NCBI RefSeq assembly: GCF_040361275.1
Contig: NZ_APNH01000007.1
Span: 1 to 61,285 of the forward strand
Source: Salinisphaera sp. T31B1
Lineage (GTDB): Bacteria; Pseudomonadota; Gammaproteobacteria; Nevskiales; Salinisphaeraceae
Direction: 5' to 3'
Length of the DNA stretch: 61,285 bases
The translations under genes and the position numbers were made by a program. This document shows, in pieces, positions 2,852-29,652 of the stretch (within the stretch, counting starts at the first letter, position 1; the number at the start of each line of letters is the position of its first letter). A model generated the notes under the pieces. The model did not search any database, was not told where the DNA came from, and was given only the letters and a program-made list of their open reading frames with translations.

Positions 2852-2939
2852 CCCATAGGGCAGCAGCAGCAGTCTAATCAATCACTTGGCACGCAACGGA
2901 AAAGAGGTGCACGCACTGCACATCGGCTGAGGTATTCCA

Positions 2940-3419
2940 GTGGGCGATACAGCGGACATCCGGAACGCCTACAACTGGAACGCTTCGAAGCTCGCGAAAG
3001 CGTTCGGTTTGCACCGCAACACGGTCATGAACCGCCTCAACGAGGCCGATATTCGACCGGTAGCGAAGCAGGGCAACGCGCCGTTGTACGCGTTGAAGGA
3101 CGCCGGGCCGGCTTTGTTCGCGCATCACTTCGCGACCGGTAACGCGCTCGACCCCGACACGCTCGACCCGCAGTCGCGCAAGGCGTGGTATCAGTCGGAG
3201 AACGAACGGCTCGAGTTCGAGAAGGCGCAGCGGCATCTGGTGCCGGATGCCGACGTCGCCGCCGAACAGGCGTTGCTGGTCAAGGCGATCGTTAACGGCC
3301 TCGATAGCTTGCCGGATGTGCTCGAGCGCGAATGCGGGCTGAATGCCGAGCAGCTGGAAGCGGTGGTGGCCGAGATCGACGCCATGCGTGACCGCGTCTA
3401 TATCGAGGCGTCGGAATGA
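2940..3419 (+). CDS. Terminase small subunit (Nu1-like)
   Basis: The 159-residue protein has an N-terminal helix-turn-helix (about 10-40, SKLAKAFGLHRNTVMNRL) as in DNA-binding small terminase subunits of the Nu1/DUF1441 kind, which recognise cos. A charged helical C-terminal part would bind the large subunit. It starts at GTG 2940 with GAGG at 2929-2932, just downstream of the cos-like site. It overlaps the large subunit gene by four bases (ATGA). Function is well supported by domain and position, although sequence similarity to Nu1 itself is loose. Confidence 0.85.
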   Translation: MGDTADIRNAYNWNASKLAKAFGLHRNTVMNRLNEADIRPVAKQGNAPLYALKDAGPALFAHHFATGNALDPDTLDPQSRKAWYQSENERLEFEKAQRHLVPDADVAAEQALLVKAIVNGLDSLPDVLERECGLNAEQLEAVVAEIDAMRDRVYIEASE

Positions 3420-5485
3420 CCACGGCCAGCGCGGCAGCGATCCGGCGCGACGTGGCCGAATTGCTACGCCCGCCGCGGCGCATGCGCGTATCGGAAGCGG
3501 CGGCGCAGTACCTGCACGTGGTAGACGGCAGCGGCAACGTGCGGCTGTGGTCGCCGAGCATGACGCCGTACATGATCGAGCCGATGGACTGCCTGGCGTC
3601 CCGGCGTTACGACGCCGTGATATTTGTCGGCCCGTCGCGGTCGGGTAAATCGATGGCGCTGGTCGACGGGTGGCAGTGCTACTGCCGGACCTGCGACCCG
3701 GGCGACATGATGATCGTCCACATCAGCGAGACGAAGGCGAACGAATACAGCAAGATCCGCCTGGACCGCCAGCTGCGCAACAGCCCGGAAATGGCGAAGC
3801 AGATATCGCCCCGGGCGCATGACGACAACGTCTACAACAAGATTTTTCGCGACGGCAGCCTACTGGCCGTACGCTGGCCCACGAAAAACCTGTTCGCCGC
3901 CAGCGAATATCGGTTCGTCGCGTTCACGGATCTGGATCGGCTGGCCGCAAGCATCGACGGTGAGGGCGACGCCTTCACCATGGGCAGCAAGCGCACGCAG
4001 ACGTTTTTGAGCCGAGGCATGGCCCTGGGCGAAAGCTCCCCCGGCGTCATCGTCCCGAACGAGCATCTGGACTGGCAACCGCCGCACGACACGCCGCACA
4101 TGTTCCCGCCGCTGCGCGGGATCGTGAACCTGTTCAACGAGGGCGACCGTCGCCGCCTCTACTGGCAGTGCGACGGCTGCCGAGAGTGGTATCGCCCCGA
4201 GCACGAAAACTGGAACCTGGAAACCGGCCGGCCGGCGTGCCCGCATTGCGATCACGAGCCGGACGAAAGCGACAAGAAGCGGCTGAACAAAAACGCACGA
4301 TGGGTGCCCGAAGGCTGCGCCCTGGATGCAGACGGCGAAATGCACGGCACGCCGCGCAAGACGCGCATCGCCTCATTCGCCATGGAAGGCCCAGCCGCTG
4401 GCTACCAGACATGGGAAAGCCTGGCCACCAAGCTGCTCAGCGCAGAACAGACATACGAACGTACCGGCTCTCAGGAAACGCTGCAGACCGTCGTGAATAC
4501 GGACTGGGGCCGGCCGTTCTTTCCGAAGCGCCGTGTCGCGGCCCACAGCGGCAGCGCCATGGCCGCCCGGGCCACGGTCGAACGGCTCAAGGTCGTGCCG
4601 CCCGGCGTGCGGTTTCTCACCTGCACGATCGACGTGCAGGGCGGCAAGGACTCACGGTTCGTCGTTCAGGTGCATGGCCACGGCGCGCATCGCGAGCGAT
4701 GGGTCATTGACAGGTTCAACATCAAGGAAGACCGCGGCCCGAAAGGCGAAGACGAGCCGACCCGGATCCGTCCCGCCACGCAGCCGGAAGACTGGGACGT
4801 GCTCACGCGCGACGTGCTGCCGCGCACCTACGCGCTGGCCGGCGAGCGCACGCTACGCATGCCCATCATGATGATCGGCGTGGACTCCGGCGGCGAATCC
4901 GGCGGCGCGGGTAGCGACAGCAGCGTGACGCGCCAGGCGTACGATTGGTATCGCCGCCTCGTGCGGGATGGCCAGAGCAAACGCGTGATGCTGCTCAAGG
5001 GCGCCACGCACAAACAGCAACAGCGCGTGCGGCTCACCGCCCCGGAAAGCCGCGGCAAGGCCGGCGCGAAAGGCGACATCCCGCTGTGGATCGTCGACAA
5101 GGACCAGCTGATCGAGGAAACGTACGGCCAGCTCCAGCGCGAAGAGCCGGGCCCAAACTATCTGCACACACCCGCGCAGAAAGCCGACAAGGACGATCAC
5201 GGCATCGGCGGCTGGTGGTACGACGAACTCGTGTCGATGGTGCGCAACGACAAAGGCCGCTACGAGCGCCGCACGTCGCACGCCGCCAACGAAGCGATGA
5301 TATTGCTCGCCTACGACCTGGCCGTGCTCACGCACCTGGGCGGCGACACGATCGATTGGGACAACCCGCCCGACTGGGCGAAGCCCTGGGACAGCAACCC
5401 TCTGCTCAAGAATCACGCGCTGCTGATGGCCCCGGTCCGTCGCCGACGGCCGCGGCGGCGGCAGAGCCGATATCTGAACAGGTGA
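3416..5485 (+). CDS. Terminase large subunit (gpA family)
   Basis: The 689-residue packaging motor has Walker A GPSRSGKS at 72-79, a Walker B-like stretch ending FTDLD near 170, and a Cys4 zinc-like cluster (CDGC ... CPHC) near 250-280, as in lambda gpA (641 residues). The C-terminal nuclease domain shows DVQGGKDSRF near 405 and GVDSGG near 490, acidic residues expected of the RNase H-like cos-cutting enzyme. It follows the small subunit with a four-base overlap. Length and motifs indicate an intact gene. Confidence 0.95.
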   Translation: MTTASAAAIRRDVAELLRPPRRMRVSEAAAQYLHVVDGSGNVRLWSPSMTPYMIEPMDCLASRRYDAVIFVGPSRSGKSMALVDGWQCYCRTCDPGDMMIVHISETKANEYSKIRLDRQLRNSPEMAKQISPRAHDDNVYNKIFRDGSLLAVRWPTKNLFAASEYRFVAFTDLDRLAASIDGEGDAFTMGSKRTQTFLSRGMALGESSPGVIVPNEHLDWQPPHDTPHMFPPLRGIVNLFNEGDRRRLYWQCDGCREWYRPEHENWNLETGRPACPHCDHEPDESDKKRLNKNARWVPEGCALDADGEMHGTPRKTRIASFAMEGPAAGYQTWESLATKLLSAEQTYERTGSQETLQTVVNTDWGRPFFPKRRVAAHSGSAMAARATVERLKVVPPGVRFLTCTIDVQGGKDSRFVVQVHGHGAHRERWVIDRFNIKEDRGPKGEDEPTRIRPATQPEDWDVLTRDVLPRTYALAGERTLRMPIMMIGVDSGGESGGAGSDSSVTRQAYDWYRRLVRDGQSKRVMLLKGATHKQQQRVRLTAPESRGKAGAKGDIPLWIVDKDQLIEETYGQLQREEPGPNYLHTPAQKADKDDHGIGGWWYDELVSMVRNDKGRYERRTSHAANEAMILLAYDLAVLTHLGGDTIDWDNPPDWAKPWDSNPLLKNHALLMAPVRRRRPRRRQSRYLNR

Positions 5486-5488
5486 GCC

Positions 5489-5584
5489 ATGAGCGTAAAG
5501 CGGCGCCGACGTCTATGGCGCCGCTGGGCAAACGCCTGGCAGAAAATCGTAGGCAGCAAACCGACCAACGCGACCCCGGCATAG
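5489..5584 (+). CDS. Possible 31-residue basic peptide
   Basis: A short frame between terminase and the next head gene encodes a very basic, Trp-rich peptide (MSVKRRRRLWRRWANAWQKI then 11 more residues). Its ATG lies four bases after the terminase stop, and a GGTGAG sits just upstream. Small basic genes in this place occur in other phages, but no family is recognised and chance is not excluded. Confidence 0.35.
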   Translation: MSVKRRRRLWRRWANAWQKIVGSKPTNATPA

Positions 5585-5594
5585 GACGCAAGCC

Positions 5595-5915
5595 ATGACT
5601 CGAATCAACATCGTCGCGCCGGCCATGTCGGACGACGCAGCGCTCGACCTGATCCGCGATCTGGCGTCCATGGACTACAACGTCGATGCGCGCGGGCCGC
5701 TGTTCGGTGAGGCCGACGAGCCCGTGGTATTCGATACCGCGCCGCCCAATCCAGACGCCATGACGCCGAACGATCGCAAGGCCCACTACCAGGCCGAGGT
5801 GCTGCGCGAACAGCTGGCACTCATGCGCGATGAACATGCCGAGCGTATCGACGAGAGCGTGATCGCCGAAACCGGCTGGCACATCGTCGCCATGCGCGGC
5901 GAGCGGAGCGAATAG
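5595..5915 (+). CDS. Hypothetical phage protein
   Basis: A 106-residue acidic protein between the terminase and gpW genes. It has no membrane segment and no motif I recognise; the C-terminal half (AHYQAEVLREQLALMRDEH) is probably helical. Two bases separate its stop from the gpW start, so it is co-translated with head genes. It may be a packaging or head-assembly accessory. Confidence 0.65.
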   Translation: MTRINIVAPAMSDDAALDLIRDLASMDYNVDARGPLFGEADEPVVFDTAPPNPDAMTPNDRKAHYQAEVLREQLALMRDEHAERIDESVIAETGWHIVAMRGERSE

Positions 5916-5917
5916 CT

Positions 5918-6148
5918 ATGGCGTTGACCGAAGCCGAGAAGGTCCAGCGCCAGGAATGGCTGAACGAGCTCGAAGAGGCCCGCGCCTCGGGCGCGACGCG
6001 GATCCGTTACCGCGACCGCGACGTGACGTTCCGCTCGCTTGACGAGCTTGATCGACTGATCGGCGAAGCCCGCCGCGAACTGGCGTGCCAGACGCGCCGC
6101 CGCCGCCCGCGCACGTTCGCCGTCTATAGCCGCAAGGGCGTGTACTGA
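5918..6148 (+). CDS. Head-tail joining protein gpW
   Basis: This 76-residue protein matches the gpW family: an N-terminal helix, a short beta hairpin (TRIRYRDRDVTF), a second helix (LDELDRLIGEARREL) and a basic C-terminal tail (RRRRPRTF), as in lambda gpW (68 residues). gpW binds the portal vertex after packaging and retains DNA before tail joining. It lies directly before the portal gene, its place in lambda. Seen features and position agree. Confidence 0.88.
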   Translation: MALTEAEKVQRQEWLNELEEARASGATRIRYRDRDVTFRSLDELDRLIGEARRELACQTRRRRPRTFAVYSRKGVY

Positions 6149-6149
6149 T

Positions 6150-7709
6150 ATGTCCGCAATCGTCGACCACAACGGCAATGCGTTCCGCCGTGTGGGCGGC
6201 GCCATGCCCACGCCGTACGAAGCCGGCGGCCAGGGCCGGCGCCTGCGTGGGTGGCTGGCCTCCGGCAGCGGGCCCAACGACGCGGCCACGGGCAATGCCC
6301 AGACGCTGCGCAACCGCTCGCGCCAGCAGTACCGCAACAACGGGTACGCGCAGAGCGGCATCAACAAGCTGGTGAGCAACATCATCGGCACAGGCATCAA
6401 GCCGCGCTCGACGGCGGACGACAAGGCGTTCCAGCGCGAGGCGCAGCTCGCGTTCGAAGAATGGGGCCAGGAGTGCGACCCGGAAGGCGTGCTCGGTATC
6501 TACGGCCTGCAAGCCCAGGCCTGCAACGCATGGCTGCAGGGCGGCGAGTGCTTCATCCGTCGCCGGCCGCGCCGCGAGAGCGACGGCCTGTCTGTGCCGC
6601 TGCAGTTGCAGGTGATGGAAGCCGAGATGTGCCCCGTCCACTACAGCATGCAGGGCAACAACGGCAACCGCATCCGCCACGGCATCCAGTACAACAAGCT
6701 CGGCCAACGCGTCGCGTACTGGTTCTACAAGTCGCACCCGGGCGATATCACCGCCGGTCTGAGCGTCGACGGCTCCATGCTCACGCGTGTCCCCGCCCGC
6801 GACGTCATTCACCTGTTCGACCCGGTACGGCCGGGCCAAAGCCGCGGCATCATCAAGATGGCGCCCGTTCTGCTGCCCATGTACGACGTCGACAAGTCCG
6901 ACGACGCCGCCGTATTGAAACAGCAGGTGCAAAACCTGTTCACCGGTTTCGCGTACGAAGACTTGGCGGGTAGTGACACGTTCCCGCACCGCCTCGCGCA
7001 AGACCAGGGCGAGCTGCCCGGCCCAGGCGAGGCATATGACGAGGGTGAGCAATCCGGCCCGGTCGATATCAGCATGGAGCCGGGCTCAATCGTGGGCTTG
7101 GCGCCAGGCGAAAAAATCAGCTTTAGCTCGCCGCCCGATGCCGGCAGTACATACGGCGAATTTCTGAAATGGCAGTTCCATCGGCATGCGGCCGGCATGG
7201 AAGTGCCTTACGAAGTGCTGACCGGCGATTTCTCGAAGATCAACGACCGCTTGGCGCGCGTGATACTCAACGACTTTCACCGGCGCGTGCAACAGCAACA
7301 GCAGCATATCGTCGTGCATCAGGCCTGCCGGGTGATCTGGGCCCACTGGTTTATGCCGGCCGGCATTCAGGTTGGCCGTTTGTCCGCGCCCGGCTTCGCC
7401 GCCAACCCGCGCGCATTTACGCGCGCAAACCATGTCCCGCAGGCGTGGCGCTACATCAACCCCGTGCAGGACGTGCAGGCCGATCGCGAAGCGGTGCGGT
7501 CCGGGTTCCGCACACAGGGCGACATTATCAACGAGCGCACGGGCGAAGACATCGACGACGTGCACAAGCGTTGGGCCGATGAGGCCGAGCAGTCCGACGA
7601 ACTCGGCCTGCGCTTCGACAGCGATCCGCGCTGGACCGATAACAGCGGCAAGCGGCTGGACGGGGCGAAGTTGCAGGAAGCCGAACGCGAAGAGGACGCC
7701 AACGCATGA
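6150..7709 (+). CDS. Portal protein (lambda gpB family)
   Basis: A 519-residue portal, the dodecameric ring through which DNA enters and leaves the head. Family signs are the N-terminal RNRSRQQYRNNGYA region, the HLFDPVRPGQSRGI block near 225, the SGPVDISMEPGSIVGL...PGE stretch near 300-325 and the VPYEVLTGDFSKINDRLAR motif near 350-370. Length matches lambda gpB (533). The gene follows gpW by one base and overlaps the next frame with ATGA. No damage is seen. Confidence 0.95.
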   Translation: MSAIVDHNGNAFRRVGGAMPTPYEAGGQGRRLRGWLASGSGPNDAATGNAQTLRNRSRQQYRNNGYAQSGINKLVSNIIGTGIKPRSTADDKAFQREAQLAFEEWGQECDPEGVLGIYGLQAQACNAWLQGGECFIRRRPRRESDGLSVPLQLQVMEAEMCPVHYSMQGNNGNRIRHGIQYNKLGQRVAYWFYKSHPGDITAGLSVDGSMLTRVPARDVIHLFDPVRPGQSRGIIKMAPVLLPMYDVDKSDDAAVLKQQVQNLFTGFAYEDLAGSDTFPHRLAQDQGELPGPGEAYDEGEQSGPVDISMEPGSIVGLAPGEKISFSSPPDAGSTYGEFLKWQFHRHAAGMEVPYEVLTGDFSKINDRLARVILNDFHRRVQQQQQHIVVHQACRVIWAHWFMPAGIQVGRLSAPGFAANPRAFTRANHVPQAWRYINPVQDVQADREAVRSGFRTQGDIINERTGEDIDDVHKRWADEAEQSDELGLRFDSDPRWTDNSGKRLDGAKLQEAEREEDANA

Positions 7710-8158
7710 GCAGACAGACGTATCGAATCGAGCCCGATCTCTATGTCGGCCCATCGTGGCGCCTGCAACAGTGGCGCGATCGCGGCACCGCACTGGTAAT
7801 TGTCGCCGACCGCGTACCCGGCCTGCCGGACTGCAATGTGGCAGTAAAGCCCGCCGGCAAGAACCGCATACCTGGCGAAGCTATTCCGCGCGGCTTTCTC
7901 CAACTCATATCGGATCAAGGAAACACCATGGCCGACCACGTAGACAGCACCAGCAACGACCGCACCACGAACAATGCGGTGCGCCACAAGTACCGCGTCC
8001 TGACGGACGAAGAGAAGGCGCAGATGCAGAAGATCAAGGATGACGGGCTCGCCATGCTCGAGTACTTCGACAGCATCGGCCAGAGCCGCGAGCTGTCGCT
8101 GGCGAAAACCAAGATCGAAGAGGCTGTCATGTGGTCGTGCAAGCACGTCACCAGCTGA
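7706..8158 (+). CDS. Long form: unknown domain fused to Acb2/Tad1-like domain
   Basis: An uninterrupted 150-codon frame starts in an ATGA overlap with the portal stop. Its first 74 residues (YRIEPDLYVGPSWRLQQW, then a hydrophobic VIVADRVPGLPDC stretch) match no family I recognise. The last 77 residues form the Acb2/Tad1-like domain described separately, which has its own strong start at 7928. Either the gene yields a long and a short product, or the upstream frame is a separate coding segment joined by loss of a stop codon. Confidence 0.55.
   Translation: MSRQTYRIEPDLYVGPSWRLQQWRDRGTALVIVADRVPGLPDCNVAVKPAGKNRIPGEAIPRGFLQLISDQGNTMADHVDSTSNDRTTNNAVRHKYRVLTDEEKAQMQKIKDDGLAMLEYFDSIGQSRELSLAKTKIEEAVMWSCKHVTS
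7928..8158 (+). CDS. Acb2/Tad1-like cyclic-nucleotide sponge candidate
   Basis: The 77-residue product ends in a two-helix domain: HKYRVLTDEEKAQMQKIKDD, a short linker, then SRELSLAKTKIEEAVMW and SCKHVTS. This pattern (Y-R-x-L-T/S near the first helix, S-R-E-x-S-L-A-x-T-K-x-E-E-A-x-x-W in the second) resembles what I remember of the Acb2/Tad1 hairpin family. Those phage proteins sequester CBASS or Thoeris signal nucleotides. The start at 7928 has AAGGA seven bases upstream. It lies between portal and protease and before a terminator hairpin. The family assignment is from memory and unverified. Confidence 0.55.
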   Translation: MADHVDSTSNDRTTNNAVRHKYRVLTDEEKAQMQKIKDDGLAMLEYFDSIGQSRELSLAKTKIEEAVMWSCKHVTS

Positions 8159-8181
8159 ACCATTAGACATAGCCAAATAGT

Positions 8182-8205
8182 TGCCGCCCACGAGGCGGCA
8201 TTTTT
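8182..8205 (+). terminator. Terminator hairpin, member of the late-operon hairpin family
   Basis: TGCCGCC (8182-8188) pairs with GGCGGCA (8194-8200) around loop CACGA, followed by five T. The block TGTGCCCG and the protease start follow within 25 bases. Confidence 0.75.
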
Positions 8206-8222
8206 GTGCCCGGAGTAAGCGC

Positions 8223-9947
8223 ATGACCCGCTACAACCACGCCCATATCGCGGCGCAGCTGTTCAACACGCCGCACATGGTCGAGCCGTCGTACGGGCAG
8301 GTGTTTGTGTCAGCGCTGGCGCCGCGGCTCAACATCCAGTCGCTCACGCTGGGTGACGGCACAGAACTGCATCAGCCGGACATGATCGCCACGGCTGAGT
8401 CGTACATGCGGGGTCAGCGAAAGCTGTACCACGAGATGGACGGCATCGCGATCATCCCGGTCGACGGCACGTTGGTGCACGACAAGTTCGGCGGGCTCAA
8501 CCCCGAATCCGGCATGACCAACTATAGCTCGATCCAGATGAAGGCCGAAGCTGCCGCCGCGGATCCGGACGTGCTCGGCATCGTACTGGACATCAATTCG
8601 CCCGGGGGGTCGGCGGCCGGCGTATTCAACTTGTCTCAGCAGCTCGCCGAGATCGCCCAGACGAAACCGATCTGGGCCGTTGTGGACGAACTGGCATGCT
8701 CGGCGGCTTACGCCCTGGCCAGCGCCTGCACCAAGATCGTGGCGCCCGAGAACGCCATGCTCGGCTCGATTGGCGTCGTGATGATGCACGTCGACCAGAG
8801 CGAGATGATCAAGGGCATGGGGCTCAACGTCACATACATCTTCTCGGGTGACCACAAGATCGACGGCAACAGCTTCGAGCCCATCCCATCCGCTGTGCAA
8901 GCCGGCTTCCAAAAGGGCGTGGACGACGCCCGCGACCGGTTCGTGCAGCTGGTGGCCACCAACCGAGGCATGGACCCGCAAGCCGTCTACGACACACAGG
9001 CCCAAGTCTACGACGCCCGCGACGCGCTCGATGTCGGCCTGCTCGACGAAATCATGCGCACCGACAAGGTGCTCGAAGCGTTCAGCGCCTCGCTGCGCGC
9101 ATCTACCCCGGCGCGGTTCGGCGCCACTCTCAAGAACGGAGCGAAAGCTATGGCACTACCGCTATGGGGCCGAAACAAGGCCAGCAACAAGGCCGCTGCG
9201 GCGGAACGCAAAGAACCGACGCTGGATGCGGGCGCTGAAGGGCAGCACAAACTGCACGTAGACGCGAACGGCGTGATCGGCGGATTCAGCGTGGCCAGCG
9301 GCGGCGAGCCGGTTTTGGCATGGAACTGCGCCAGCTGGCCCGCCGAGCGTGTTGAAGCGCTGGAAGCGGCCGGCTTTACCATCAATCGCGACACAGACGG
9401 CAACGCCGAAAGCGTGGTGCTGCCGCAGGGCGAGGCCAGTGCAACGCTGCGGCCTGCCGACGATGCCGAGAAGCAAGCGGCCGGCACCGGCGAGCAGATG
9501 ACGGAAATCAACGCCGGCGAAGCCGAAACCGTCGAGACACTTTCGATAAAAGGAGGCCGCCCGGCGCCGGCCAGCCTCGACGCCCTGGTCTCGCTCTGCA
9601 GCGAACACCAGTGCGACACGCTGGCCAAGCCGCTGCGCGATCGCGGCGTCACCGCCGAACAGGCCGAAGCCATCATGGCCGACGTGGACGCCATCCGCGA
9701 CAAGATGGCCGTGACCTTCCCGGACGACCCGAAAGCCGCCGCCGACATGGCCAACCGTTTCGCGGTCGCTGCCCACGGCAGCGCCACCGCCCAGTTCGCC
9801 GAGCCTCTCTCGGCGCTCATGGTCGAAGCCCAGGCCCGCATGGCGGGCGAGGAAATCGACCAACACCCGCCCGAAACCAGCCAGGCGGCCGGCCAGGGGC
9901 GTATCAGCGCGCGCGCGGTCCACAAACGGCACAACACGCGCAAGTAA
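8223..9947 (+). CDS. Head maturation protease, S49 family, with C-terminal scaffold (gpC-like)
   Basis: The 574-residue protein has an S49/SppA-type protease domain at about 60-280: the DINSPGGSA block near 123-131 and ELACSAAY with the expected nucleophile Ser160. It resembles lambda gpC, which trims head proteins. The C-terminal third is Ala/Glu-rich and helical and is also made alone as scaffold from an internal start (9150). ATG 8223 is chosen because the longer frame back to 8181 runs through the terminator hairpin. The Shine-Dalgarno GGAG lies at 8212-8215. Confidence 0.9.
   Translation: MTRYNHAHIAAQLFNTPHMVEPSYGQVFVSALAPRLNIQSLTLGDGTELHQPDMIATAESYMRGQRKLYHEMDGIAIIPVDGTLVHDKFGGLNPESGMTNYSSIQMKAEAAAADPDVLGIVLDINSPGGSAAGVFNLSQQLAEIAQTKPIWAVVDELACSAAYALASACTKIVAPENAMLGSIGVVMMHVDQSEMIKGMGLNVTYIFSGDHKIDGNSFEPIPSAVQAGFQKGVDDARDRFVQLVATNRGMDPQAVYDTQAQVYDARDALDVGLLDEIMRTDKVLEAFSASLRASTPARFGATLKNGAKAMALPLWGRNKASNKAAAAERKEPTLDAGAEGQHKLHVDANGVIGGFSVASGGEPVLAWNCASWPAERVEALEAAGFTINRDTDGNAESVVLPQGEASATLRPADDAEKQAAGTGEQMTEINAGEAETVETLSIKGGRPAPASLDALVSLCSEHQCDTLAKPLRDRGVTAEQAEAIMADVDAIRDKMAVTFPDDPKAAADMANRFAVAAHGSATAQFAEPLSALMVEAQARMAGEEIDQHPPETSQAAGQGRISARAVHKRHNTRK
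9150..9947 (+). CDS. Nested scaffolding protein (Nu3-like internal start)
   Basis: In the protease frame an ATG at 9150 is preceded by GGAG at 9138-9141 with an eight-base gap. Translation from here gives 265 residues without the protease domain: a linker, a small folded region and an Ala/Glu-rich helical C-terminus. This is how lambda makes scaffold Nu3 from within gene C. The scaffold would direct capsid assembly and then be degraded by the protease. The internal start is seen; its use is inferred from the lambda precedent. Confidence 0.65.
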   Translation: MALPLWGRNKASNKAAAAERKEPTLDAGAEGQHKLHVDANGVIGGFSVASGGEPVLAWNCASWPAERVEALEAAGFTINRDTDGNAESVVLPQGEASATLRPADDAEKQAAGTGEQMTEINAGEAETVETLSIKGGRPAPASLDALVSLCSEHQCDTLAKPLRDRGVTAEQAEAIMADVDAIRDKMAVTFPDDPKAAADMANRFAVAAHGSATAQFAEPLSALMVEAQARMAGEEIDQHPPETSQAAGQGRISARAVHKRHNTRK

Positions 9948-9977
9948 GCACCACTCCCAACACTCAAGGAGTTCGAT

Positions 9978-10343
9978 ATGACGGTACTCACCGAAGGCCG
10001 CCACACGGCGGAATTTCTGGCCAGCGAGGCCAATGGTTTTCGATCGCGCGAAACCATCACGCTCGCCAGCGGCGAAACGCTCGAAGCCGGCACCGTGCTC
10101 GGCGTATCTACGACCACCGGGAAGTACGCCGGCCTCAATCCGGATTCGACCGCGGGATATGAAGACGCGACGGCCGTGCTGTACGACAACTGCGATGCCA
10201 CGGCCGGCGACATCAAGGCCGTGATCGTCGCGCGCGATGCGGAAGTGAAGCGCGACGCGCTGGTCTGGCCGGACGGCATCGAGGAGGCGGACAAGACCGC
10301 CGCACTGGAAGCACTCGCCGCCAAAGGCATCGTCGCCCGGTAA
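9978..10343 (+). CDS. Head decoration protein (gpD family)
   Basis: A 121-residue protein of the lambda gpD family, trimers of which cement the expanded capsid. It shows the usual start TEGRHTAEFLASEANGFRSR and the GTVLGVSTTTGKY beta region. Length is close to lambda gpD (110). An AAGGAG lies at 9966-9971, six bases before the ATG. The gene sits between protease/scaffold and capsid, as in lambda. Confidence 0.92.
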   Translation: MTVLTEGRHTAEFLASEANGFRSRETITLASGETLEAGTVLGVSTTTGKYAGLNPDSTAGYEDATAVLYDNCDATAGDIKAVIVARDAEVKRDALVWPDGIEEADKTAALEALAAKGIVAR

Positions 10344-10379
10344 CCGCCGGCCCACCCATACCCACTGGAATCACAATCG

Positions 10380-10401
10380 CCGGCCATGAGCCGGTTTTTT
10401 T
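10380..10401 (+). terminator. Terminator hairpin before the capsid gene
   Basis: CCGGC (10380-10384) pairs with GCCGG (10390-10394) around CATGA, followed by seven T. TGTACCC and AGGAG lead into the capsid ATG. It may tune the decoration-to-capsid ratio or be a member of the repeated boundary block. Confidence 0.7.
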
Positions 10402-10425
10402 GTACCCAACGCAGGAGAACTACTC

Positions 10426-11436
10426 ATGCCCGGCATGAACATTTTCGATAACGACGCATTCAGCCTCACCACGCTGACCGCCGCCATCAACGAGCGCGAT
10501 TTCGTGCCGTCGATGATCCGCAACATGAACCTGTTTCGTTCGCGCGGCGTGACCACCACCACCATCGCCATCGAGCGCAAGGGCACCGAGCTCAAGCTGA
10601 TCCCGACGAGCCCGCGCGGCGCGCCCCCGGGCGAGCTGGTGACCAACAAGGCCAATCTGCGCGACCTTCGCATCCCGCATCTGGCCAAGAACGCCACCGT
10701 TGTGGCCGACGAAGTGCAGAACGTGCGCGCGTTCGGCACGGACGACGAGCTGCAGACCGTGCAGGATCTGGTGATCGATCGCACCGAACTGCTTGCACAG
10801 GAGTTCGATCTCACCGAAGAGCACCTGATGCTTGGCGCACTGCAGGGCAAAATCTACGACGCCGACGGCACCACGCTGATCTACGACCTGTTCAGTGAAT
10901 TCGGCGTTTCGCAGCCCGCTGCCATCGACTTCGCCCTGGATACGGACGCCACCAAGGTGCGCACCAAGTGCACCGAAGTGATCCGCACCATGGGCAAGAA
11001 CATGAAGGCGGGCGGCATGCAGTTCGGTGTGGGGGCCATCGCCGAAGATTCGTTCTTCGACGCGCTCATCAACCACCCGGACGTCGAGCGCGCCTACGAG
11101 CGGTTCCAGGAAGGCGCAGCCCTTCGCAACGACTACACCTGGCAGTCGTTCCAGTTCGCCGGTATCAACTTCATCAACTACCGCGGTAGCGATGACGGCA
11201 AGGTCGGCCTGGCCGAAGGCGAATGCCGATTCTTCCCGATGGGCGTGCCCGGCGTGTTCGAGATCGTCTACGCCCCGGCGGACTATGCCGACACGGTCAA
11301 CACCGTGGGCCTGCCGCGCTACGTGGTGCCCAACCTCGAAGACACCGGCAACAACCGGTATCGCAAGTTCGAGGTCCAGGCCAACCCGCTGCCGTACTGC
11401 ACGCGTCCGCAGACGCTGCTGCGGGGCACGGCGTAA
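10426..11436 (+). CDS. Major capsid protein (gpE family)
   Basis: The 336-residue protein matches the lambda gpE family (341 residues). Signs include DAFSLTTLTAAIN at the N-terminus, PRGAPPGEL near 65, the EHLMLGALQGKIYDADGT region near 130-145, and the C-terminal YVVPNLEDTGNNRYRKFEVQ and TRPQTLL blocks. It forms the capsid shell with an HK97 fold. An AGGAG at 10412-10416 is a strong ribosome site, in keeping with high expression. A terminator with a 10-bp stem follows. Confidence 0.95.
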   Translation: MPGMNIFDNDAFSLTTLTAAINERDFVPSMIRNMNLFRSRGVTTTTIAIERKGTELKLIPTSPRGAPPGELVTNKANLRDLRIPHLAKNATVVADEVQNVRAFGTDDELQTVQDLVIDRTELLAQEFDLTEEHLMLGALQGKIYDADGTTLIYDLFSEFGVSQPAAIDFALDTDATKVRTKCTEVIRTMGKNMKAGGMQFGVGAIAEDSFFDALINHPDVERAYERFQEGAALRNDYTWQSFQFAGINFINYRGSDDGKVGLAEGECRFFPMGVPGVFEIVYAPADYADTVNTVGLPRYVVPNLEDTGNNRYRKFEVQANPLPYCTRPQTLLRGTA

Positions 11437-11460
11437 TCGCTCACCCGAGCGATGACTCAA

Positions 11461-11491
11461 AAGCCCGGCCGGGCCGTCTGGCCGGGCTTTT
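11461..11491 (+). terminator. Terminator after the capsid gene
   Basis: AAGCCCGGCC (11461-11470) pairs perfectly with GGCCGGGCTT (11480-11489) around nine bases, ending in a T-run. With a 10-bp GC-rich stem it is the strongest-looking internal terminator of the late operon. Confidence 0.8.
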
Positions 11492-11523
11492 CTGTGATCG
11501 CCCATCACTTCATTGGAGCCGAT

Positions 11524-11667
11524 ATGTCAGGTGCAATCCCCCGTTTGCCGTTCCCATATCTGTCGCGCTTCGGCTGGTATCGAAAGCGAACTGAGCGCGA
11601 ACTGATCGGCATCGCGTGCGCGATTGGCATGGCGGCCGGCGTCGCTATTTGCGCGGTGGCTTGGTAG
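11524..11667 (+). CDS. Small membrane protein
   Basis: A 47-residue peptide with a basic N-terminal half (FGWYRKRTERE) and one C-terminal hydrophobic segment (IGIACAIGMAAGVAICAVAW). GGAG lies at 11515-11518 upstream of ATG 11524. It follows the capsid terminator and precedes the head-tail connector, where a membrane protein is unexpected in a virion operon. It may act on the host membrane during late infection. No family is recognised. Confidence 0.55.
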   Translation: MSGAIPRLPFPYLSRFGWYRKRTERELIGIACAIGMAAGVAICAVAW

Positions 11668-11671
11668 CCCC

Positions 11672-11971
11672 ATGAACATCGAACGCCTCACCACCCGCGC
11701 CGGCGCCCGGGCATTCAGCCAGGGGCGGGCGGTCTATCGGGGCGCGCGCGTGCCCGGCGGCGTGGTGCACGACATCACGGCCGTGCTCGATCGCAGCTAC
11801 GAAGTGTTCGATGAAGACGGCGTGGCCCGTCGCGTGACGGTCATGGCCGTGCAGGTCAGCCAGGTGCCGAGCTCGGAGCGGGGCGACACCATCGAACGCG
11901 ATGGCCGGTCGTGGCAGGTCATCCACACGCTGGAAGACGACGGCCACGATCGCGTGCTCGAGGTGACGTGA
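11672..11971 (+). CDS. Head-tail joining protein (FII-like)
   Basis: The 99-residue beta-rich protein lies directly after the capsid cluster and before the Z-like gene, the place of lambda gpFII, which forms part of the neck. Alternating hydrophobic strands (GGVVHDITAVL, VTVMAVQVSQV, WQVIHTLEDDG) and length fit the family, but identity is weak. ATG 11672 lies four bases after the small membrane protein's stop. The end overlaps the next ATG by one base. Confidence 0.55.
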   Translation: MNIERLTTRAGARAFSQGRAVYRGARVPGGVVHDITAVLDRSYEVFDEDGVARRVTVMAVQVSQVPSSERGDTIERDGRSWQVIHTLEDDGHDRVLEVT

Positions 11972-12552
11972 TGACCACGTTCTACCGGATACAGGATTCG
12001 GAGCGCCTCAAGTCAGAACTGGGCGCCGCAGCGCGGCACGTCGAAACCGCGAAGCGTCGGGCCATCAGCGCCGTGACGGCCAAGGCCGCGACATTCATAT
12101 CGCGAGACATACGCGACGTGTTCGCCATCCGGGCGAAAGACATCAAGTCTGCATTGTCCGTTCGGAAATACGAAAAGGACGCCAAGGCGCTGTTGTACAC
12201 CGGCGGAAAGATCCCGCTCGAAAAATTCGGCGGCAAGGACAAGCGCGTCTCGATCACCGCGACGAGCCGCCGCGGAAAGAAATTCAAGACCAGTCGCCGC
12301 GCGGCCACCGCGCGGGTCCGGAAAGATAAAGGCCGCCAGGTCGTCCGCCCCGGCGGCTTCCTCGCCAAGGGCCGGATCTACCGCCGGCGTGAGCAAGACA
12401 AGAACGACAGCACGCTGGTGCCCATGTTCGGCCCGTCCATCCCCGGCCTCGTCGCCCACCCGGAAACGATCCGCGGCGCACAAGACCTCGTACGCGACGA
12501 ACTGCCGAAAGAATTCGACCGCAACCTGCGCCATCTGCTGGGTGACGACTGA
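11971..12552 (+). CDS. Minor tail protein Z
   Basis: A 193-residue basic protein of the lambda gpZ family (192 residues), needed to complete the tail for joining to heads. The N-terminal helix (LGAAARHVETAKRRAISAVTAKAATFISRDIRDVF) and the C-terminal half with LAKGRIYRR and VPMFGPSIP are typical. The ATG shares a base with the upstream stop (TGATG), and its stop overlaps the next ATG likewise. The sequence looks intact. Confidence 0.85.
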   Translation: MTTFYRIQDSERLKSELGAAARHVETAKRRAISAVTAKAATFISRDIRDVFAIRAKDIKSALSVRKYEKDAKALLYTGGKIPLEKFGGKDKRVSITATSRRGKKFKTSRRAATARVRKDKGRQVVRPGGFLAKGRIYRRREQDKNDSTLVPMFGPSIPGLVAHPETIRGAQDLVRDELPKEFDRNLRHLLGDD

Positions 12553-12989
12553 TGCAGAACCCCGACATCCAGCCGGCGCTGATCGAACGCCTCAAAGACC
12601 GGTGCAGCGACGTGTTCGCCGTGATCGACGACGCATGGAACGCGCCGGCTATCGAGCAGCTGTATGAAACGACGCCGGCGGCCTACGTGTTTCTGCAAGC
12701 CGAAGGCCCCGACCGCAACGCCGACCCGGAGACGAACTGCCCGCGCCAGCGCGTGACGTTTGTCTACGCCGTGCATCTCGTCGTCAACGGCGAGCAGTTC
12801 CGCGACGTGGCCCACCGCGTGCGCGAAGCGTTATTCGGCTGGGGGCCCACCGAGCAGCACCTACCCATGGCCAACCGCGGCGGCGAGCGGATGGCCGGCG
12901 GCCGCTCGCCGCTGGGCGGCCTGTATATCGAATACCAGCAGCGCTGGTCCGTCGACACCTGGCTACGCAATAACAACCCGAGTGCATAA
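12552..12989 (+). CDS. Tail terminator protein (gpU-like)
   Basis: The 145-residue protein follows Z, the position of lambda gpU, which caps the growing tail tube and fixes its length. It has an N-terminal helix, a central beta sheet (TFVYAVHLVVNGEQFRDVAHRVREALFGW) and a C-terminal strand (GGLYIEYQQRWSVDTWLR) as in gpU-like terminators. No sequence signature is decisive, so the call is mainly position plus predicted fold. One-base overlap with Z. Confidence 0.65.
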   Translation: MQNPDIQPALIERLKDRCSDVFAVIDDAWNAPAIEQLYETTPAAYVFLQAEGPDRNADPETNCPRQRVTFVYAVHLVVNGEQFRDVAHRVREALFGWGPTEQHLPMANRGGERMAGGRSPLGGLYIEYQQRWSVDTWLRNNNPSA

Positions 12990-12991
12990 CC

Positions 12992-13387
12992 ATGAAAGCG
13001 CCGCGCGAGTTCCCAACGCCGCTTTATATAGAAGCGATCGCTCGATACATGGATTTGAGTCGCGAACGTCGCGACGAGATGGCCCGCTTGCGAGACCTTC
13101 TAGGTCCAGCGGCCTACGCTGGCCTATGTCACGGCCGCATGGATCTAGGGCCGCGAACAGGCAAGACGTACGCGGCGGCCAATGCGGCGGATGCCGAAGA
13201 CGTTTGCGCAGTCGTCGCGACGCGTGACCTTGCGTTCCGAACGCATCGTCTTAACGGCAGCCGTGCCGCGAGCGATCTATGCGCGCCATTTGACGACGAC
13301 ATTATCTACGTGTTCGACAGTGCGCGCCTTCCGCCCGGCTATTTCGATCATCACTGCCCACTGATCGCTTTTCACCTCGGCGAATAA
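12992..13387 (+). CDS. Unknown protein with P-loop-like motif, inserted in tail module
   Basis: A 131-residue protein between tail terminator and tube, where lambda has no gene. It has an N-terminal helical part, then GPRTGKT (53-59) followed by a helix and a hydrophobic strand (VCAVVATRDLAF). This looks like a minimal P-loop but has one residue fewer than GxxxxGKT, and no Walker B is clear. The C-terminal part is acidic and Phe/Tyr-rich. It could be a moron or an assembly factor. Function unknown. Confidence 0.6.
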   Translation: MKAPREFPTPLYIEAIARYMDLSRERRDEMARLRDLLGPAAYAGLCHGRMDLGPRTGKTYAAANAADAEDVCAVVATRDLAFRTHRLNGSRAASDLCAPFDDDIIYVFDSARLPPGYFDHHCPLIAFHLGE

Positions 13388-13401
13388 CCCAGGAGCAATC
13401 C

Positions 13402-13578
13402 ATGCCCATCCGATCCGGCGGTCGCTATCGCGTCCGCAACGGCAAGCCTGTGCTCGAAGAGCGCACTGGCTATCGCCCCGAAGCCGAGGCCGTGCCCGCG
13501 AAGAAGGACACGGCCACCGAGAAACCCGCGCCGAAGAAGGGCGCCGCCAAGAAGGAGACGCCCGATGCTGACGCGTAA
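13402..13578 (+). CDS. Small basic phage protein, Lys/Ala-rich tail
   Basis: A 58-residue frame with AGGAG at 13391-13395 and ATG at 13402. The N-terminus (MPIRSGGRYRVRNGKPVLEE) has the look of a small beta hairpin; the rest is Lys/Ala/Pro-rich and disordered. Its stop overlaps the tube gene start by 14 bases, so it is probably co-translated with it. No function is known to me. A good ribosome site and coupling support a real gene. Confidence 0.65.
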   Translation: MPIRSGGRYRVRNGKPVLEERTGYRPEAEAVPAKKDTATEKPAPKKGAAKKETPDADA

Positions 13579-14494
13579 ACGAATCGTCCTGCCGAAGATC
13601 GAAACCACCTACGGCGAAGACGCCTCGCCGGACGGCGCCAGCCGCGTGATCACGACCAGCGATTTCTCCTGGACGCCGTACCAGGGCGACACGCAGACCC
13701 GCGACCGGCTCACCGATACGTTCGGCGCCCGAGCCGAAGTGAACGTCGGCCCGAACACGTCGCTGCAGTTCTCTGTGCCGCTGGCCGGCTCCGGCGAAGC
13801 CGGCACGCCGCCCGTGTTCGGCCCGTTGCTGCGCGCCTGCGGCATGTCCGAAACCATCGCCGACGGCGAGTCGGTTACCTATCAGCCGGTTACCGACGCC
13901 ACCGAGTCGGTGACGCTGTACTACAACATGGACGGCGTACTGCAGGCGATGGTCGGCACACGCGGCACGTTCGTGCTCAACGCCAACGGCGGCGCATTCC
14001 CTACGCTGCAATTCACCCTGACGTCGTTCTACAAGCGGCCAGTGACGCAAGCGGCGCCGACCCTGTCGGACATCGAGCAGGCGGACGAAATCCCGGTGAA
14101 CAAGCAGAACACCGTGGGCAGTGTGCACGGCCACGCCGCGTGCATGTCGGGCATGACGGTCACACAGGGCAATTCGGTGAACTACTTCAACCGGATCAAC
14201 TGCGAAAGCATCGAGATCACCGACCGCGAAACCACCGGTTCGGTCACCATCGATGCCGTGCGACCGGACGTGCAGGACTATTTCGCGGCCATGGAATCGC
14301 ATGAAGGCGTGATTCTGGCCCCGGTCTCGATGACCCACGGCAAGACCGCCGGCAACATCGTCGAAGTGTCCGGTTCGAAAGTGCAGCTGTCGGGCCTGTC
14401 CATGGGCGACGACAACGGCCGCGCCCAGTACGAGATGACCACCCGCTACATCCGCGACCAGGGCGACGACGAGTTCACCCTGGTGTTCAAGTAG
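13565..14494 (+). CDS. Major tail tube protein (gpV-like)
   Basis: A 309-residue protein of the siphovirus tail tube family. It stacks as hexamers around the tape measure to form the non-contractile tube. Beta-rich throughout; family-like blocks include YGEDASPDG near 18-26, the SVPLAGSGEAGTPP region near 72-85 and the EFTLVFK end. Unlike lambda gpV there is no clear Ig-like C-terminal domain. It sits directly upstream of the tail chaperone pair, as expected. Confidence 0.85.
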   Translation: MLTRKRIVLPKIETTYGEDASPDGASRVITTSDFSWTPYQGDTQTRDRLTDTFGARAEVNVGPNTSLQFSVPLAGSGEAGTPPVFGPLLRACGMSETIADGESVTYQPVTDATESVTLYYNMDGVLQAMVGTRGTFVLNANGGAFPTLQFTLTSFYKRPVTQAAPTLSDIEQADEIPVNKQNTVGSVHGHAACMSGMTVTQGNSVNYFNRINCESIEITDRETTGSVTIDAVRPDVQDYFAAMESHEGVILAPVSMTHGKTAGNIVEVSGSKVQLSGLSMGDDNGRAQYEMTTRYIRDQGDDEFTLVFK

Positions 14495-14503
14495 GAGCCG
14501 CCC

Positions 14504-14872
14504 GTGTCTGGAATCAAACTCAAACCCGTCGCCCAGGTCGAGCAGGAAGTGAGCGTGCCCGTGCCGCGTGGCAAGGGGTCGTTCTCGAACAAGAAAATGC
14601 TCGTCACGTACCGGCTGCGCTCGGCCACGGCCATGCGCGAGTTCTGGGAAACGCCGGCCGATGAGCGGCCCACCGACGACGAGCTGATGCGGGCCGACAT
14701 CATCGCCGTCAAGAACGTGGACCGCGTGGTCGACGTCGAGGGCGATCTGTCGACGGTCGAAACGGCCGATCTGGTCGACCTGCTCATGGACGTGCCGTAT
14801 ATCCGCGGCCCGCTCATCCAGGGCTGGGGCGACACGCAGAGCAACCGGGACACCCACGCCACAAAAAACTGA
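14504..14872 (+). CDS. Tail assembly chaperone gpG
   Basis: The 122-residue product of the zero frame. It starts at GTG 14504 after AGGAG (14494-14498) and stops at the TGA just after a slippery AAAAAAC. Position between tube and tape measure and the frameshift arrangement identify it as the gpG counterpart, a chaperone that coats the tape measure during tail assembly. A helical, acidic C-terminal half fits. Sequence similarity to lambda gpG is not obvious. Confidence 0.85.
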   Translation: MSGIKLKPVAQVEQEVSVPVPRGKGSFSNKKMLVTYRLRSATAMREFWETPADERPTDDELMRADIIAVKNVDRVVDVEGDLSTVETADLVDLLMDVPYIRGPLIQGWGDTQSNRDTHATKN

Positions 14873-15201
14873 CAGACCTCGGCCGCTACTGGGCCGGCGG
14901 CGGCCGGGGTCAATCACTCGACGACGACGCCACGGCGTTCGGGCTGACGATCGACGACCATCAGCGCGACGCCGGCAGCGTAGACCTATGGCCCGAACAC
15001 CTCGCGGCCTGGAACGTGTTCGCCGCCTGCGGCACGCAGTGGCGCGTCATCGCCGGCCCGGGCGCCGTGATTCACCAGGGGCTGGAATACACGGCCGTCG
15101 AGTCTGTCATGCGGATGCGTGGCGTCGAGGACCAGGCCCAGTGTCTCGACCATATACAGCACATCGAACGCGGCGCGCTGGACGAACTCAATAAGGACTA
15201 G
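14504..15201 (+). CDS. Tail assembly chaperone gpGT, -1 frameshift product
   Basis: A -1 slip on AAAAAAC (14863-14869) lets ribosomes bypass the TGA at 14870 and continue at CTG 14869, adding 110 codons up to TAG 15199-15201. The fused product has 232 residues. The added T part contains DLWPEHLAAWNVFAACGTQW, then a GLEYTAV motif, matching the DUF1799-type T domain of siphoviruses. The T frame has no good start of its own for its first 49 codons. In lambda the G:GT ratio is essential for tails. Confidence 0.88.
14863..14911 (+). promoter_or_regulatory. Programmed -1 ribosomal frameshift signal
   Basis: The heptamer A AAA AAC (14863-14869) is in the correct phase. After a five-base spacer comes a 12-bp stem: GACCTCGGCCGC (14875-14886) with GCGGCCGGGGTC (14900-14911), one G-T pair, 13-base loop. 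Slippery site, spacer and stem all match known bacterial signals. Lambda uses GGGAAAG without such a strong stem. Confidence 0.88.
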
Positions 15202-15204
15202 ATC

Positions 15205-15405
15205 ATGGCCAAATCATCCACCGTCGACGACTTGCGAGCGGCCCGCGACAAACTCGCCACCGACATCGCGCAGCGTATCGCCCAGTTCGAAACCGACCAG
15301 GGCGTGCTGGTGCAGAGTGTCACCGCCAACCCGAAGCGAGTGCCGTCGGCCAGTGGCGACACAAACGACTGGTCAGAAACCGTACGCGTGCGGCTGACGC
15401 TGTAG
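15205..15405 (+). CDS. Small hypothetical phage protein
   Basis: A 66-residue soluble protein after the T frame, with AAGGA upstream of ATG 15205. The N-terminal half is helical and charged (VDDLRAARDKLATDIAQRIAQF); the C-terminal half is beta-like. It is the last plus-strand gene before the immI-like island. Function unknown. Confidence 0.6.
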   Translation: MAKSSTVDDLRAARDKLATDIAQRIAQFETDQGVLVQSVTANPKRVPSASGDTNDWSETVRVRLTL

Positions 15406-15411
15406 TACAGG

Positions 15412-16359
15412 TCAACGCATAAGGCGGTGCTCAGCAATCCGGGAGAGCCGATCAGCGGCCGCCGATATGATCGAGGGCAGCATCTTATAAGGGATGTATT
15501 CATCCACGATCGTTCGCACCTCTGCCTCGGAGTCTGGCCGAATAATGGCGACGAACGGCGAAAGAGGATTCACCTGTATTCGATGGTCGCTTTCGAGCGA
15601 TACGAGCCAACGTTGCCGGCCCTCGGAATGGTCGACACGAAGCCCGGCGATAGATGGGCCTAGGGCCGACCTGAGAAATTCGGTTGGATCGTGGGGCGCG
15701 GGCTGCTTGTTCGGCGCCGGGATGAATTCGCCATCGAGGGTGCACGAGGCAATGAAATTGCAGGCGTCTTCAAGACTGTCGGCCGGGATCTGGTCGGCCC
15801 GGCGCACATTGAAGCGCGCATGGACCATGCTCCAGAGGTAAGACTTCGCGCAGCGGGTGCTAGGCCCGGCAATTTTCTTGGTCCGCTGGGCTACCAGGTT
15901 ATGAAGTACGTTGAATCCATCCGTGCCGATCGTGGAATCGGTCACGCGCGGGTTGATGGCGACGCCGACGTTCCAGTAGTTCGCGAGAACATCGAAGCAT
16001 TCCGATTGATATTCGATAAGGCGGTCGCGAACCTCTGGCCGTACGCGACTGGCATCGACGCCGAACAGCCAGCCGTTGAGTTTGGAGAGAGGCAGTGTGA
16101 CGAGCTTTCGCGATTGAGCACCCACCTGCGTCGTCATGACGACGACGCAGGGTGATAGAACGGCGTGACGCTTGATGCGGTTGTATTGCGCGCGCCAGTT
16201 CAAGCCGATGCCTTCACACACTGGCTTCATGGCCACACGGATGACGCCATTATCGTTGAAGGTCGAAATCGCCTGTCCGTGGAAGGCCACGTCGCTAGGC
16301 ATGGCGCCTGTACGCGAACGGACATTGTCGGTTGCAACTGAAGTGGTAACATCACTCAT
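15412..16359 (-). CDS. Phage antirepressor, P22 Ant-like
   Basis: The 315-residue protein has the P22_AR_N-type domain at about 20-130: FHGQAISTF, VAMKPVCEGIGLNW, then LPLSKLNGWLFGVDASRVRPEVRDRL and YQSECFDVL. A C-terminal region (about 155-220) resembles other Ant C-terminal domains. Ant proteins bind the prophage repressor and trigger induction. ATG 16359 has AAAGGA nine bases upstream; GTG 16365 is too close to it. It is transcribed against the late operon and divergent from the Arc-like gene, the immI arrangement of P22. Only six bases separate its stop from the tail gene facing it. Confidence 0.85.
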   Translation of the reverse strand: MSDVTTSVATDNVRSRTGAMPSDVAFHGQAISTFNDNGVIRVAMKPVCEGIGLNWRAQYNRIKRHAVLSPCVVVMTTQVGAQSRKLVTLPLSKLNGWLFGVDASRVRPEVRDRLIEYQSECFDVLANYWNVGVAINPRVTDSTIGTDGFNVLHNLVAQRTKKIAGPSTRCAKSYLWSMVHARFNVRRADQIPADSLEDACNFIASCTLDGEFIPAPNKQPAPHDPTEFLRSALGPSIAGLRVDHSEGRQRWLVSLESDHRIQVNPLSPFVAIIRPDSEAEVRTIVDEYIPYKMLPSIISAAADRLSRIAEHRLMR

Positions 16360-29606: not shown

Positions 29607-29629
29607 GCCGCCCGCGAGGCGGCTTTTTT
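29607..29629 (+). terminator. Terminator hairpin before J
   Basis: GCCGCC (29607-29612) pairs with GGCGGC (29618-29623), loop CGCGA, then six T, followed by GTGCCCGACATAAGGA and the J start. It is almost identical to the hairpin at 17602. Confidence 0.72.
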
Positions 29630-29652
29630 GTGCCCGACATAAGGACGTTCGC

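Follow-up and report, generated by a model that had tools for sequence, protein, structure and literature searches.

According to the accounts in PMC12043709 and PMC10097602, the Acb2 proteins studied so far are hexamers in which cyclic dinucleotides occupy pockets between subunits, cyclic trinucleotides occupy either end of a central channel, and neither ligand is degraded. Tad1, which belongs to the same hairpin family, is described as carrying an N-terminal beta sheet (PMC12043709), and homologues of the phage T4 protein Vs.4 have been placed in PHROG 717 (Jenson et al. 2023, PMC10097602). Carrying such a sponge has its risk, since the Panoptes defence, as described in PMC12657218 and PMC12657230, detects it. 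Homology is already used to name phage acb2 genes, for example in phage Statler (PMC13348362). Among the papers listed by our search of the open-access literature, none dealt with the acb2 subfamily treated here.

We analyzed a stretch of 61,285 nucleotides from Salinisphaera sp. T31B1 (hereafter the window). The initial annotation had noted a 150-residue ORF on the forward strand, had assigned its C-terminal part to the Acb2/Tad1 family, and had proposed a profile comparison with that family as the check, the lack of a match counting as refutation. The assignment was correct, and the profile match was found. Residues 95-149 of the ORF match the Pfam family PF24729 (Acb2_Tad1_hairpin) with an E-value of 9.9e-19 and 67.7 bits, the curated cut-off being 27, and the shorter 76-residue form that we consider the more probable protein matches it with 2.3e-19 and 69.8 bits. 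When a set of 44 relatives was scanned, each one matched PF24729 too, so the family match is far beyond chance. The PHROGs matches were phrog_717 (1.1e-5), phrog_1454 (5.1e-6), and phrog_15810 (9e-4), all labelled as of unknown function, and the PADLOC and NCBIfam profiles gave zero matches for the protein. Matches of the long ORF to LPD39 (Pfam, 0.0046) and eIF-5a (0.18) fell under their own cut-offs and were taken as chance. The profiles show the predicted product of 7928-8158 to be a member of the Acb2/Tad1 hairpin family, and the structural model described below supports this. By analogy with the studied proteins, we read it as a 76-residue family member, carried as cargo at a gene junction in a prophage, that most likely serves as a sponge for CBASS-type cyclic oligonucleotides by the Acb2 mechanism, and we give this reading a probability of roughly 0.83.

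A comparison with Acb2 and Tad1 structures had also been suggested. Our AlphaFold2 model of the 76-residue protein, built on 40 sequences, has a mean pLDDT of 86.5 and helices at residues 11-14, 27-50, and 54-75. The second and third are long and antiparallel, with block pLDDT values of 88-98; the N-terminus contains the short helix at 11-14 and no strand, and is of low confidence (block means of 63 and 58 over the first 20 residues). In a Foldseek search of the PDB with this model, the top six rows were Vs.4 and Acb2, with probabilities of 0.84-1.00, and Tad1 appeared further down. The E-values were weak, from 0.085 to 1.7 for these six rows and at or below 0.001 for none of the 74, as expected for a short helical protein, and we do not regard the fold match as decisive. 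A profile of 44 relatives searched against PDB sequences ranked the family first, with Vs.4 at 1.7e-4, Acb2 p26 at 6e-4, Acb2 homolog 43 at 0.0041, and Tad1 at 0.008. The nine rows with E-values up to 0.0094 all belong to these four proteins, and the next row lies at 0.15.

Each of the four shares some features with the window protein and lacks others. Vs.4, the Acb2 of phage T4 (PDB 7uq2), is the top row of both the profile and the Foldseek search, but it has a long inter-helix loop that is absent from the window protein, which in turn has a longer N-terminus with the pattern R..NN..RH and replacements at Vs.4 F82, H11, and S74. Acb2 (p26) of Pseudomonas phages (PDB 8h2j, 8ixz) aligns at the start of helix 1 through Y-R-x-L-S-x-E-E ... 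K and matches in fold, with an rmsd of 2.0 for 8h2j_A; its loop, however, is about 24 residues longer, and the identity in the structural alignment is 20%. Acb2 homolog 43 (PDB 9ptq) is a compact hairpin with GRE.S..KTK.EEA, and its alignment begins at profile position 33, leaving the N-terminal motif outside; none of the papers listed by our literature searches could be recognised as dealing with it. Tad1 (PDB 7uav, 8kbg) resembles the window protein in the second helix, SRE..A.T..EEA.MW, whereas its beta sheet is missing from the 76-residue model and searches with residues 1-74 of the long ORF gave no match to Tad1.

Relatives were collected with the 76-residue query, which yielded 218 confirmed relatives among 236 viral stretches with pattern matches in one viral scan, 32 among 91 genome stretches, and four phage records, two of which are the same virus. 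Eighty of the 218 viral relatives, the 32 from genomes, three from phage records, and the window protein gave 116 sequences, and the removal of 12 repeats and 5 sequences of unusual length left 99 (98 relatives and the window). Judging from record titles, Alphaproteobacteria account for 26 of the 32 genome loci. Four relatives (L098, L099, L103, and L108) have about nine extra residues in the loop joining the two helices.

We then considered 13 positions of Vs.4 for which a part in binding or assembly has been published, as described in PMC10097602 (and, for T68, in PMC12657230), with the published numbering placed on the PDB chain, at an offset of one, through alignments. Vs.4 L60 was left out, its change not having abolished inhibition according to PMC10097602. 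Seven of the 13 are identical in the window protein (Y8, T12, K23, F33, A66, T68, and A73), three are conservatively changed (L29 to M, A77 to S, and R79 to K), and three are different (H11 to L, S74 to V, and F82 to T). At the cGAMP site, defined by Y8, H11, K23, R79, and F82, the tyrosine and lysine are thus kept, the arginine is a lysine, and H11 and F82 are replaced; at the hexamer interface, A66 and A73 are kept and the changes at L29 and A77 are both conservative. Across the 99 sequences, Y8 is conserved in 96, K23 in 98, A66 in 99, T68 in 96, and A73 in 98, while the T12 position is serine in 57 and most relatives have Val, Leu, Ile, or Cys at F33.

The ligand preference may differ from 3'3'-cGAMP, because the position of Vs.4 F82 is threonine here and because an extra N-terminal motif is almost invariant. 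The F82A change in Vs.4 lowered cGAMP binding more than 25-fold, according to PMC10097602. The hairpin might therefore be a sponge of the same fold for some signal other than the dinucleotides that Vs.4 favours, such as the cyclic oligoadenylates of type III CRISPR systems, the cADPR isomers of Thoeris, or an undescribed CBASS product. The replacements of F82, H11, and S74 by Thr, Leu, and Val run through the whole subfamily (each in 98 of 99 sequences), the R, NN, and RH ahead of the tyrosine are kept in 95-98 of the 99, with part of the stretch missing from the short members L109 and L112, and the likeness of the second helix to Tad1 points the same way. Against this stand the retained tyrosine and lysine of the dinucleotide site, the lack of the Tad1 sheet in the model, and the lack of a ThsB_TIR match in the host, and we consider such a change of ligand unlikely, if worth keeping in mind. 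A broader form of the idea, to be offered only tentatively, is that a large and compact Acb2-like subfamily, mostly from phages of alphaproteobacterial hosts and marked by R-x2-N-N-x2-R-H-x-Y-R-x-L and by Thr in place of the Vs.4 Phe, sequesters a signal that the known Acb2 proteins do not favour, with some members (L032, L054) fused to a membrane, holin-like tail. With the key stacking position unlike that of T4 Vs.4 and the N-terminal motif conserved, the ligand of the subfamily is worth measuring; were it new, this would hint at an immune signal that the hosts of these phages use.

For the CBASS sponge that we prefer, homology predicts a hexamer of helical hairpins that would bind the cyclic oligonucleotides with which CBASS-type cyclases signal an infection. 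Kept from their effectors, these signals would not cause the infected cell to be killed before phage release. We counted against this role the changes at H11, S74, and F82, the variability of F33 among relatives, the best Foldseek E-value of 0.085, and the distribution of the defences themselves. The host genome has no match to the SMODS cyclase family and none to ThsB_TIR, whereas the SAVED profile matched neither the host nor any control genome. SMODS is uncommon in related genomes, being found in 9 of 146 (5 over the cut-off), with PF24729 in 5 of the 146, the host included. Among the 14 genomes listed from the same genus, SMODS occurs in three (one of them weakly, below the cut-off), and the host is the one genome with PF24729. 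The lysogen itself need not have CBASS, since the sponge would serve on infection of another cell. In two genomes of the genus (G007 and G010), the gene for a SLATT 2TM effector comes after that for an SMODS-AGS_C cyclase (matched by PADLOC Cyclase at E <1e-188). The genus thus contains CBASS with this arrangement, which could be the target of the sponge. In two same-genus loci (L130 and L131), a CBASS operon of SMODS-AGS_C and the 2TM protein SLATT_6 lies directly after a ribonucleotide reductase small-chain gene, an assignment that was tested with Pfam in L130 only.

The initial annotation placed the gene at 7706-8158. The reading frame exists on the forward strand and contains the residues quoted from it, but the left boundary is probably wrong: the gene is most likely 7928-8158 (+), encoding 76 residues with a GC3 of 0.91, and the start at 7706 is probably not real. 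We prefer the start at 7928 because residues 1-74 are without relatives, because the GC3 of that part is lower, because the relatives start near M75, and because an AAGGAA resembling a ribosome binding site (7917-7922, +) lies five bases ahead of the ATG at 7928. The best E-value for residues 1-74 in a search of phages was 0.7, none of 12 candidate stretches in viral_contigs was confirmed as a relative, the window itself was the only match among 61 genomes, and nothing in Pfam was matched when they were searched alone. The first 74 codons have a GC3 of 0.65, as compared with 0.84 for the portal gene and 0.83 for the protease gene on either side. A start codon is found at the aligned start (about M75) or at most 8 codons before it in 92 of the 98 distinct relatives, and a Shine-Dalgarno-like motif, by a loose pattern, at the start codon of 83. 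Upstream, 83 of the 98 have an open frame shorter than 74 codons, and in 15 it extends over at least 74 (4 of the 98 run off the contig). We thus regard the in-frame open run at 7706-7927 (+) as probably lying outside the protein.

Translation of the whole ORF as a two-domain, Tad1-like protein of 150 residues is a reading that we rejected as very improbable. It has in its favour that the frame is open from an ATG overlapping the portal stop, a frequent arrangement for coupled phage genes. Besides the missing relatives and the weak codon bias of the first part, it has against it that an open run of 74 codons occurs at 12% of positions in shuffled window DNA and that the best PDB sequence match of residues 1-74 is not Tad1 but a UbiD-like decarboxylase (E 0.057). 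The family signature noted by eye in the initial annotation is confirmed and the likely gene start corrected.

The position that had been given between portal and protease also held. The left neighbour is the portal gene (6150-7709, +; phrog_21, E 6.8e-97) and the right neighbour the head maturation protease gene (8223-9947, +; phrog_53, E 1.7e-107), with head decoration and major head protein genes nearby. The prophage is lambda-like: its terminase is of the lambda type, and it has a tail tip J. To its right lie mutS, recA, an alanyl-type tRNA synthetase, and an amino acid kinase. We obtained the spacing between portal and protease for 26 of 87 related-portal locus entries, representing 21 distinct contigs, from script estimates of the start codons that were checked by ORF listing in L117, L118, and L119. 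The two genes overlap in 20 of the 21 contigs, 12 of these by 4 bases. In L118 and L119, with portals 68-69% identical to that of the window, the portal gene stops and the protease gene starts within a single ATGA. At the window junction the same ATGA occurs at 7706-7709 (+), overlapping the portal stop, followed by 513 bases containing acb2 and then by the protease ATG at 8223. The ATGA would be a relic of the overlap seen in the relatives: an insertion at the junction could have left it behind, giving rise to the misleading 150-residue ORF. The sole gapped contig is L117, with 41 or 56 bases between portal and protease depending on the start chosen; it has no match to our acb2 profile, and its gap shares 28 bases, with one mismatch, with window positions 8188-8215 (+).

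The acb2 profile matched none of the 87 related-portal entries (80 distinct contigs) in the DNA examined, and as a control it found 7 of 8 loci, missing L128. This comparison shows the putative acb2 to be cargo at a normally gapless portal/protease junction, and we infer an insertion at this site and not a loss from the others. A counter-defence gene would thus occupy a normally closed slot of a lambda-like head operon. The site between portal and protease could also suggest a capsid assembly factor of the head operon whose sponge fold is incidental. The absence of acb2 from the related loci makes this hardly credible, as does the variety of ORFs found near the relatives elsewhere, which span portal, terminase, DNA polymerase, exonuclease, ParB-like, and endolysin genes. 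That variety comes from a crude scan by a simple script, which took the longest forward-strand ORF of at least 60 residues among up to three per side (not always the adjacent gene) and gave 89 upstream and 89 downstream ORFs for the 98 distinct relatives. The commonest PHROG families upstream were portal, terminase, minor head, RNA ligase, exonuclease, and endolysin, and those downstream were terminase, DNA polymerase, ParB-like, and head protease; among the 25 commonest families, each occurred in at most 6 of the 89 ORFs scanned. Lying beside so many unrelated phage genes, acb2 occurs at many unrelated positions, as expected for counter-defence cargo. The gene might also be in decay, left over in a defective prophage and without a working protein. 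That the window begins inside or near the left part of the prophage could be taken to favour this, but it is scarcely plausible given a full-length frame that, by eye, keeps the consensus residue in 10 of 11 invariant or nearly invariant columns of the pocket-bearing second helix.

A moron is an autonomous phage cargo gene that brings its own promoter and terminator and separates two genes that are adjacent in relatives. We observed a junction that is gapless in 20 of 21 distinct related contigs and a terminator-like hairpin with a T run after acb2 (8182-8205, +); a sigma-70 consensus promoter was found neither in 7500-8500 nor in 2900-16000, where about two would be expected by chance, and other promoter types are possible. 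Five such terminator-like sites occur in the region, as compared with 1.0 expected (sd 1.3). The hairpin overlaps the stretch common to the window and L117, and the acb2-protease spacer as a whole has a folding z-score of only -1.3. We rejected a terminator as a general feature of acb2, one following 3 of 99 acb2 copies as compared with 7 of 267 neighbouring ORFs; the terminator-like element is local to this phage. It is possible, as initially suggested, that acb2 is made late with the virion proteins. A second, similar terminator-like element lies at 29607-29637 of the window, between two tail-region genes.

Two individual relatives deserve mention. Dunaliella viridis virus SI2 (L002, HQ332136.1), for which the record gives a green alga as host, has an acb2 product 62% identical to that of the window; it also carries an ERF family gene and an ORF with matches to phage endolysins, and the host label looks doubtful. 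In the other case, a fusion seen at L032:3992-4681 and L054:3992-4717, the acb2 hairpin continues in frame, uninterrupted by a stop, for about 150 further residues. This tail gave no Pfam match and, by eye, contains hydrophobic, holin-like segments. The fusion looks real, as two diverged contigs show it.
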